Assembly: GCA_003597995.1 (NCBI GenBank)
Contig: QZJY01000026.1
Coordinates: 1-64,000, forward strand
Direction of reading: 5' to 3'
DNA length: 64,000 nucleotides
DNA from: Dehalococcoidia bacterium
GTDB lineage: Bacteria; Chloroflexota; Dehalococcoidia; Dehalococcoidales; UBA1222
The first letter of the stretch is position 1, and every line of letters starts with the position of its first letter. The translations under genes and the position numbers were made by a program. Below are positions 1-19,351 of the stretch, in pieces. The notes under the pieces are model-generated. The model made no database searches, was not told the DNA's origin, and saw only the letters and a list, made by a program, of their open reading frames with translations.

Positions 1-1100
1 AAATCGCCAAAAAGGCCGGCATCACCTCCATACTGGGAGTGCCGGTTGCCTGTGGCGAGGAGACTTATGGGGCGATTCGCGTCTATTTCAAGGAGCCATA
101 TTCGGTAACCAACCAGGACACCAGCTTCGTCGTCACGCTGGCGCACCTGGCGGCGTTGGCACTATGCGGTGTCGAAGCGCGCTCGGGCAATGGAGCGGTC
201 CAAAAAGCGGCGGGGGAGCCGGCTGAAGCGTCCAAACAACGCAGCACCGTCCATTTCGCCCACGAAAGCGAAGCGGAGTTTGCTCACATACTGGATTTTT
301 ACGGCATTGACTGGATTTACGAGCCGCGCTCTTTCCCGCTGGAGAACAAAAGCGAACATGCCAGCGAGATGTTCACGCCGGATTTTTACATCCCCTCGCT
401 TGACCTGTACGTCGAGCTTACCACCATGAAGCAGAACCTGGTGACGGGCAAGAACCGCAAGCTACGCCAGCTTAAAGCGCTCTACCCCGAGATAAAAATC
501 AGCCTGTTATATAAAAACGATTACGACAGGCTGCTGGCCAAGTATGGGGCGGGGCCGCTGGCGCAGTCCAGGGCGCACGGCATCCGCCGGGTGCTTTTTT
601 CCGCTTCGGAAATCGATAAGAGGGTGAGGCAACTGGCGGAAAAAATGTCGGCTGATTACGCAGAACGCAGGCCCATCCTGGTGGGAGTCCAGCGCGGCTT
701 TCTGTGTTTCATGGCCGACCTGATGCGCCAGATAACGGTGCCGCTCGACCTGGATTTCATGGCCATCTCGCATTACAGCCAGGAGGAGGGCGTCAGGGTT
801 ACCAAGGACATCGACATGCAGGCCAAGGACCGCCACGTCATTTTAGTGGAAGACATCGTAGACACCGGCATCACGCTGAATTACATGCTCAAACACCTGC
901 GGGCCAAAGAACCGGCCAGTCTGGCGGTATGCGCGCTGCTGGACAGAAGGGCGCGGCGGCTGGTGGATGAAAAGCTCGATTATGTGGGGTTCGAGGTGCC
1001 GGACGAGTTCGTGGTGGGCTACGGCCTGGATTTCCACGAGGAGTACCGCAACCTGCCGTTCATCGCTGTTCCCGAGATAAAAGAGTTTCCTCAGAAATAA
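1..1100 (+). CDS. GAF / PD-(D/E)XK-like / phosphoribosyltransferase fusion, 5' truncated
   Basis: The reading frame is open from base 3, so the gene starts before the window; the GTG at 39 is internal. Three parts are visible. The first about 50 residues look like the end of a GAF-type sensor domain (GAIRVYF..., then a hydrophobic helix). The middle has a nuclease-fold signature, FTPDFYIPSLDLYVELT, resembling PD-(D/E)XK proteins but with T where the catalytic lysine is often found. The C-terminal about 160 residues are a hypoxanthine-phosphoribosyltransferase-type domain with the PRPP loop VEDIVDTGITL. The combination suggests a signalling or nucleotide-linked role rather than simple purine salvage, but the function is not known to me. 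Gene calls for the C-terminal domain are firm; the nuclease assignment is tentative. Confidence 0.75.
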   Translation, partial: IAKKAGITSILGVPVACGEETYGAIRVYFKEPYSVTNQDTSFVVTLAHLAALALCGVEARSGNGAVQKAAGEPAEASKQRSTVHFAHESEAEFAHILDFYGIDWIYEPRSFPLENKSEHASEMFTPDFYIPSLDLYVELTTMKQNLVTGKNRKLRQLKALYPEIKISLLYKNDYDRLLAKYGAGPLAQSRAHGIRRVLFSASEIDKRVRQLAEKMSADYAERRPILVGVQRGFLCFMADLMRQITVPLDLDFMAISHYSQEEGVRVTKDIDMQAKDRHVILVEDIVDTGITLNYMLKHLRAKEPASLAVCALLDRRARRLVDEKLDYVGFEVPDEFVVGYGLDFHEEYRNLPFIAVPEIKEFPQK

Positions 1101-1215
1101 GCCTCAACGGCAATACCTGTTTTTAGATTGGCAGCATTGCCACAGGCCTCAACTTGTCTCGACATCGATGGAATTAAGCCATTCCAGATTTTTTGCTGGC
1201 AACGCAGCCGGAAAT

Positions 1216-1244
1216 AAAAAAGAGAGGAGTAAACTCCTCTCTTT
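1216..1244 (-). terminator. Intrinsic terminator of the small RNA
   Basis: Minus-strand stem AGAGAGGAGT/ACTCCTCTCT (1221-1230 with 1233-1242) followed by a run of six U residues. The U tract is on the minus-strand side, which fixes the direction of the RNA gene. Confidence 0.8.
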
Positions 1245-1440
1245 CGGAACCCCTTAAAACGGGGCCCCAGGTAGCCTCTGCACCCGGAACAGTCCACTTA
1301 GCACTTTCCTTGGCGGCACCCCGCGGATTTCCGTTACGTCCATTTCGGTTGGGACCTAGTGCACGCTAGGTTGCCCTTTGGGGTTGACCACCAGGTGACT
1401 AGTCGGGTGGCTGTCGCCACTGCATTGGTTACCTGGGACG
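1216..1440 (-). ncRNA. Unassigned structured small RNA (about 225 nt)
   Basis: A compact transcription unit on the minus strand with no open reading frame. A consensus promoter lies just upstream and an intrinsic terminator ends it. The ends pair: 1427-1437 with 1266-1276 (10 of 11 positions). Inside are perfect hairpins at 1407-1420 (GTGGC/GCCAC stem) and 1355-1370 (CCTAG/CTAGG stem). I looked for signature sequences of SRP RNA, RNase P RNA and tmRNA and found none. A 6S-like regulator is possible from size and closing stem only. The family is unknown to me. Confidence 0.6.
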
Positions 1441-1445
1441 GGTTT

Positions 1446-1474
1446 ACTATCTCATACGCACCGCGAAGTGTCAA
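1446..1474 (-). promoter_or_regulatory. Sigma70-type promoter of the small RNA
   Basis: On the minus strand TTGACA (1469-1474), 17-nt spacer, GATAGT (1446-1451). The expected transcription start near 1439 falls at the first paired base of the RNA. Confidence 0.65.
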
Positions 1475-1735: not shown

Positions 1736-2683
1736 CTATCTCTGGCACAGGTCCGGCGGGAATCTGGGACGCGGACCTAAACCCAGGCGCAGCCGGCTGT
1801 ATTCCGAGCTTATTTCTGCTCCCATGACAAGGATAAAGGCCACGTAGCGGGCAAATATCAGCAGGATGATGATGGAGCCGAACCAGCCATAGACTGTCTC
1901 TACGTGGGAAAATCGGCTGAAATAAACCACCATAATAATGCGCGCCACTTCAAATGCCGCACTCGAGAAAAGAGCTCCAGGCCACACATGAAGCCAGTAG
2001 GTTTTAGTACAGGGTATGGTTTTATAAACCAGTAAAAAGATCAAGAACACGAATGCGAACTCAAATATATTAAGTGCCAGACCTCCTGCTACTCCACCTC
2101 CGGCGCCGAAGGAAACGAGGACCGCAGTCGCTGTAATCGCCCCATAGAAAAACATGCAGGCGCCGACCGACATGGCGACTTCGCGCAACTTGCGGATGTG
2201 AAATGGATGGCGGACGTTGACCCCCCAGGCGCGATTGACCCCCAGGCTGATAGCTCTGAACATGGCACCGGCCGACAAAAATAGCGCTACCAAACTGAAA
2301 ATGCCCAGCGGCCCGCGTACCTGAATAATGCTCGTAATGTTGAGCCTTAATATGTCCTCGGCGGCCGGCAGATTCATTTCTATGAAACTGAATATCTGGT
2401 CCTGCACTGTAGCAGAGGGTAGGAAGAAACCCAACAGGGAAATAACCACCAGCAGCAGGGGGAACAGAGAAAGAATGGCATCATAGGCTATGGCTCCCAC
2501 CACCTCGGAGGCGCCGTCGTTGCCCATGCCCTCGATAACCTCGTTAAGGAAACCGAAAAAAGGTATCCTGATAAGCCTGGCACGAGCCTGTTCGGCCTTA
2601 ATGCCCGGAATCCTGGAGAGGGTTACCATCCGGTCTCTCCATCGCCCAGGAGGCTTATTGAGATTCTCTCGGTTATCTTTCAT
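1736..2683 (-). CDS. YihY/UPF0761 family integral membrane protein
   Basis: A 315-residue polytopic membrane protein of the family once misnamed ribonuclease BN. Around six hydrophobic segments are visible (for example LFPLLLVVISLLGFFLPS and GPLGIFSLVALFLSAGAMF), and the family-typical motif SAAFEVARIIMVVYF near residue 240 is present. The N-terminal 40 residues are basic and cytoplasmic by appearance. The ATG at 2683 has no strong ribosome-binding site. Members may act in export or cell-envelope processes, but the biochemical role is not settled. The gene stands alone, with the small RNA gene downstream on the same strand. Family call is secure; function is not. Confidence 0.85.
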   Translation of the reverse strand: MKDNRENLNKPPGRWRDRMVTLSRIPGIKAEQARARLIRIPFFGFLNEVIEGMGNDGASEVVGAIAYDAILSLFPLLLVVISLLGFFLPSATVQDQIFSFIEMNLPAAEDILRLNITSIIQVRGPLGIFSLVALFLSAGAMFRAISLGVNRAWGVNVRHPFHIRKLREVAMSVGACMFFYGAITATAVLVSFGAGGGVAGGLALNIFEFAFVFLIFLLVYKTIPCTKTYWLHVWPGALFSSAAFEVARIIMVVYFSRFSHVETVYGWFGSIIILLIFARYVAFILVMGAEISSEYSRLRLGLGPRPRFPPDLCQR

Positions 2684-19257: not shown

Positions 19258-19351
19258 GGAGGCGGATAGGCTCTGGTGGGCCTTGCGGACTTCAAATCCG
19301 TTGGCGGCGGTTAACCCGCCGCGGGGGGTTCGATTCCCTCCCCCTCCGCCA
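19258..19351 (+). tRNA. selC: tRNA-Sec (selenocysteine, anticodon TCA)
   Basis: A 94-nt tRNA with the selenocysteine hallmarks: anticodon arm GCGGA-CTTCAAA-TCCGT (anticodon TCA, reads UGA), a 6-bp D stem AGGCTC/GGGCCT, a long variable arm (GGCGGCGG...CCGCCGC), T arm GGGGG-TTCGATT-CCCTC and the 3' end GCCA. The long acceptor stem GGAGGCGG/CCCCTCC has one C-C mismatch at position 6. It lies directly upstream of selD, selA and selB. Confidence 0.96.

Follow-up and report, generated by a model that had tools for sequence, protein, structure and literature searches.

What is encoded in the interval that separates an unusual phosphoribosyltransferase gene from a membrane-protein gene in this Dehalococcoidia genome? 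The window, by which we mean the whole 64,000-nt stretch of DNA that was analysed, opens within the first of these genes. A first-pass annotation read the interval behind it as an orphan structured RNA gene. We therefore asked whether it is a gene of its own, whether it belongs to a known RNA family and what its product might do.

Architecture of the RNA gene

The interval holds a non-coding RNA gene on the minus strand, at positions 1474-1217. The features of the locus are as follows.

39..1100, plus strand: convergent neighbour, the C-terminal part of a GAF / nuclease-like / hypoxanthine phosphoribosyltransferase (HPRT) fusion; the window starts inside this gene
1212..1245, minus strand: intrinsic terminator, a 12-bp hairpin (1245-1218) plus U-run; the stem has a changed sequence in the close relative G001
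1264..1276, minus strand: 3' arm of the closing helix P1, followed here by CCCGUUUU and then by the separate terminator hairpin
1264..1440, minus strand: conserved RNA core (177 nt), the class-wide homologous part; 87.5% identity to G001 and covariance-model matches
1336..1366, minus strand: loop-E-like hairpin module GCGU-GCACUA-GGU-CCCA-ACC-GAAAUGG-ACGU; the same module occurs in G001
1355..1370, minus strand: second internal hairpin of the first-pass annotation, CCUAGCGUGCACUAGG, an alternative to the module; base-pair probability 0.59
1407..1420, minus strand: first internal hairpin of that annotation, GUGGCGACAGCCAC, not predicted to form; base-pair probability 0.01
1427..1439, minus strand: 5' arm of P1; pairing probability 0.96-1.0 and class-wide covariation
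1446..1474, minus strand: promoter, with -35 TTGACA (1474-1469), a 17-nt spacer ending in TGA and -10 GATAGT (1451-1446)
1736..2683, minus strand: upstream gene for a BrkB/YihY-family membrane protein, given as context outside the RNA gene; the same neighbour is found in G001

The consensus promoter (TTGACA-17-GATAGT) and the textbook terminator described at first pass were both borne out. The promoter is the sole promoter-like site within 1100-1735, where shuffled sequences contain 0.4 ± 0.7, and the TG that precedes its -10 hexamer makes it an extended -10 promoter. The expected transcript is about 222 nt, close to the roughly 225 nt first proposed. Its folding energy is far below that of shuffled sequences (MFE -102 kcal/mol, z = -5.7; none of 200 shuffles reached this value). 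GUCCCAGGUAACC, which starts at 1439, a few bases downstream of the promoter, pairs with GGCUACCUGGGGC, which ends at 1264. The resulting helix of 10-13 bp unites both ends of the RNA (arms 1439-1430 and 1273-1264, then CC/GG; base-pair probabilities 0.96-1.0), as had been claimed. The two perfect internal hairpins fared less well. Both are present as inverted repeats, but neither belongs to the conserved fold, in which the module at 1366-1336 is kept instead. In the window, the hairpin at 1370-1355 and the module have equal folding energy (-78.4 versus -78.3).

When 60 relatives, phages and plasmids were searched by BLASTN, a single copy turned up, in the same-genus genome G001 (locus L003). 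Both flanking genes are common to the two loci, with the HPRT-fusion gene at L003:87-1499. The promoter hexamers are kept in G001, with only 7 of 17 spacer bases identical, and the terminator stem is retained despite its altered sequence; the flanks have diverged. The G001 module reads GUA-GGU-CCCA-ACC-GAA; the window copy is degenerate, with CUA replacing GUA. The first-pass annotation had seen no ORF here. Strictly, short mechanical ORFs of 46 and 68 aa overlap the RNA gene, but three single-base gaps separate the window copy and that of G001 inside the core, and open frames among homologues are not in excess (0.77 versus 0.83 in shuffles). Indels of this kind between close relatives, together with the lack of an open-frame excess, argue against protein coding.

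A conserved family in the Dehalococcoidia

Since BLASTN yielded only the same-genus copy, covariance models were needed. Across 156 genomes of the order, R1, built from two sequences, detected homologues in 11, among them single-contig genomes of 1.5-2.1 Mb in family f8. R2, built from 14 sequences, extended the family to other orders of the class and to short forms of 94-115 nt. A third model, R3, was built from 16 short forms and run over 400 Chloroflexota genomes, where it found copies outside the class in families f135 (five genomes) and f147 (one). Together with synteny, these models gave roughly 100 candidate homologues of 81-229 nt, spread over the Dehalococcoidia, with a few beyond the class. 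A pattern scan of genome contigs added four true loci; a fifth match (L022) sits in apparent coding sequence and was rejected as a chance match. Named hosts from the genome scan are the Dehalococcoidales and Dehalococcoidia MAGs STB_164, KR_bin-3015, SURF_40 and UBA5627. Because filters were strict and few candidates per genome were scored in the large searches, these do not establish absence. The RNA is thus lineage-specific, as first suggested, but the lineage is the whole class plus at least one outside family.

Judging from the tmRNA tag (GERELVLAG) of G016, a complete f8 genome, f8 is probably Dehalococcoides plus Dehalogenimonas, and the family therefore probably includes these two genera. 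Both serve in the clean-up of chlorinated solvents. In their copies the transcript is predicted to start with UGUCCCAGG and to run to 180-190 nt.

Some genomes carry two to five copies of the RNA gene. One f8 genome has three, two of them in tandem. Two tandem, diverged copies, each with its own TTGAC-type promoter, were seen at L008 and L009 (G079 and G080). Extra copies lie away from the HPRT-fusion gene in several genomes of the class (five in G248, four each in G202 and G282). The similar copies L185, L187 and L189 (G248) and L188 (G282) lie within dispersed repeats of 380-480 bp that are 88-94% identical, with further short repeats nearby. The family thus comprises orthologues and paralogues in the Chloroflexota, widespread in the Dehalococcoidia, with a few outside lineages.

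Most homologues stand tail-to-tail with the GAF/nuclease-like/HPRT fusion gene, a gene of purine salvage, as in the window. A search of 393 class genomes at E<=1e-20 returned HPRT-fusion homologues in 226, the weaker ones matching the HPRT part only. When the flanks of 110 such genes were inspected, roughly 70 held an RNA gene that converges on its neighbour from the other strand. A gene combining promoter, closing helix and U-run scored at least 30 in 49 of 80 HPRT flanks, compared with 2 of 240 dinucleotide-shuffled flanks. Among 70 homologous genes, TTGACA is exact in 67, which was partly a selection criterion, and TGn precedes the -10 in 60, which was not. The RNA is again near the HPRT-fusion gene in the two f135 genomes inspected (L167, L168). 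As a separate observation, many HPRT-fusion genes of family f51 (e.g. in G167, G292, G402, G448 and G468) carry one in-frame TAA or TAG stop in the matched stretch, which suggests that the fusion is split there into two ORFs.

Compensatory base changes, which the first-pass annotation proposed to look for, are clear in the closing helix. Over 42 distinct sequences the 13 pairs of P1 are 96.3% paired, a figure inflated because complementarity was part of the grounds for accepting most loci; false accepts are bounded by the shuffled-flank control. Nine of the 13 pairs show changes on both sides, with 74 double-changed cells, a count that none of 500 shuffles attained (shuffled value 27.6). With the partner shifted by one base, pairing falls to about 50%. 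A smaller signal in the same direction comes from the 14 sequences that R1 alone detected, with double changes in four pairs, and in the 16 short forms P1, P2, P4 and P5 together have them in 15 of 24 pairs. A U-run directly follows the 3' arm of P1 in most relatives, so P1 probably doubles as a terminator.

The interior apart from P1, P2 and the hairpin module aligns poorly across the class. The module consists of GUA, a 3-bp stem, a short loop (most often GGAA, GAAG or GAAA) and GAA. It occurs 34 times in 83 homologues, whereas mononucleotide shuffles contain a mean of 1.24 (maximum 4). Its stems vary (GGC/GCC, AGU/GCU, GGU/ACC) and covary in the short forms. Forms of about 110 nt have one module and longer forms two or three; in the long forms, separate hairpins and a single rod are equally compatible pairing schemes. 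With AGUA or GGUA facing GAA beside a short stem and tetraloop, the module resembles the bulged-G (loop E, sarcin-ricin) motif of 5S and 23S rRNA. Unlike loop E of rRNA, it recurs here within a stand-alone small RNA, and its three-dimensional fold is read from sequence.

Comparison with known RNAs and a proposed role

At gathering cut-offs, no Rfam 15 family matches the window RNA or the homologous loci scanned, and permissive Rfam scans gave chance or terminator-shape matches alone. The RNase P models do not match the window RNA. ARAGORN finds no tmRNA in the window, and in the complete relative G016 the tmRNA is separate from the family RNA. The first-pass statement that it matches none of the house-keeping RNAs named there (SRP, RNase P, tmRNA) holds, and the data support the reading as an orphan, a structured RNA gene that belongs to none of the Rfam 15 families. 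We also found no description of the RNA in the openly licensed literature. A non-coding RNA conserved across a bacterial class appears absent from both sources.

Its own promoter, the lack of a conserved coding frame, the compensatory changes in P1, the HPRT-adjacent place and the repeated modules indicate a stand-alone structured RNA. Bulged-G-type motifs often dock proteins. Our preferred reading, on which we are evenly balanced, is that the RNA is strongly expressed, acts in trans at a length of about 180-222 nt and holds a protein through its hairpin modules. Transcription from its own promoter would be strong and constitutive, and the closing helix would lock the RNA ends and help to end transcription. 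A rod-like body could then display the GUA/GAA modules to a protein, as the shape of the motif suggests, and the RNA would act by holding or sequestering it, much as 6S RNA or CsrB-type decoys do; the number of modules and of gene copies would tune the dose. Like CsrB, RsmY and RsmZ, the RNA has repeated hairpin modules in variable number and several gene copies in some genomes. It differs from these protein decoys in that GUA/GAA internal loops lie under GNRA-like tetraloops, in place of CsrA sites with GGA in the loop, and in that a closing helix unites its ends. A(N)GGA repeats of the CsrB/RsmZ type were not found in the hairpin loops, where the module carries GGAA, GAAG, GAAA, CCCA and similar sequences.

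The first-pass annotation had suggested a 6S-like regulator. A diverged 6S RNA of the class, a rod that binds RNA polymerase, would fit the rod-like shape, the paired ends, the strong promoter of its own, the single or sometimes tandem gene and the similar length of the long forms. The Rfam 6S model (RF00013) also matches 53 of 251 Chloroflexota genomes, none of them from the Dehalococcoidia, as well as the positive controls, and it finds no 6S in any class genome sampled. However, the model has no match at E<=10 on the RNA and none in the window's genome. The family shows no recognisable central bubble, and short forms of 81-115 nt leave little room for one between two long stems; repeated loop-E-like modules and a different genomic place set it further apart. 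The canonical 6S RNA of other Chloroflexota looks different, none of the six loci checked has it next to the HPRT gene, and R3 does not match it. In the outside family f135, weak 6S matches fall below the cut-off. The GGUCCGUCC stretch in Dehalogenimonas-like copies resembles E. coli 6S, but no 6S score backs the likeness and we discarded it as a sign of 6S. Membership in the 6S family is therefore not supported, and we consider a diverged 6S RNA unlikely. Because the class has no recognisable 6S, the RNA is a concrete candidate for a missing regulatory role.

A small RNA that regulates mRNAs by base pairing through its variable loops is similarly doubtful. Its strong promoter, paralogues and fast-evolving interior would suit such a role, but there is little conserved unpaired sequence and the most conserved parts are structured.

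The conserved neighbourhood raises another alternative, that the RNA is a ligand or regulator of the adjacent GAF/nuclease-like/HPRT protein. PyrR is a phosphoribosyltransferase-fold protein that binds RNA hairpins, and by analogy the phosphoribosyltransferase domain of the fusion might bind the modules. The convergent arrangement is conserved class-wide and seen again in an outside family, and a GAF plus nuclease-like N-terminus is unusual for HPRT; the nuclease-like reading comes from a weak Pfam match (Phage_endo_I, in L168) and a PD...E pattern. Yet paralogues lie elsewhere, as do the copies in G375 and G654, and synteny can be passive. The domain, moreover, scores as a true HGPRTase (TIGR01203), and PyrR models match it weakly. 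Such a partnership seems to us quite improbable. It is more doubtful again that the modular loop-E RNA and the HPRT-fusion protein form a ribonucleoprotein regulator that links an RNA-bound nuclease to the state of purines or alarmones.

A dispersed repeat, or mobile element, that folds by chance could account for the G248 and G282 copies within repeats, but it is a highly improbable source of the family, since a copy sits at one conserved place in most genomes, and promoter, helix and module have persisted while the class diverged.

A divergent SRP RNA or other housekeeping RNA is the least credible alternative. SRP identity was a serious candidate at first, as SRP RNA was not found in the window's genome (G000) or in the complete f8 genomes, and bacterial SRP RNA (RF00169/RF01854) is likewise a long hairpin rod with conserved internal loops. 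Coexistence elsewhere ruled it out: G033 has a full large SRP RNA (187 bits) besides the family RNA, and G010, G215, G251 and G375 carry the canonical SRP core motif besides it. The family RNA has no helix-8 core (GUCAGG..AGCAG), the SRP model matches neither the window RNA nor its homologous loci, and R3 gives no match above chance at SRP loci. In G016 (1,521,287 bp; loci L195-L271), neither the Rfam models nor an order-specific profile finds SRP RNA; one weak profile match (E 0.07) looks like coding sequence. That genome also yielded no Ffh/FtsY-like GTPase, either in motif searches or with the E. coli Ffh G domain as tblastn query (best E 0.27), although motifs of EF-Tu and SecA are found there. 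The SRP pathway may thus be missing from G016.

With the stand-alone, protein-holding RNA as the preferred reading, the family is now characterised well enough, down to its helices and modules, for experimental testing. Elsewhere in the window, a tRNA-Sec gene lies at 19258-19347 on the plus strand (75.3 bits), and the genome therefore probably uses selenocysteine.
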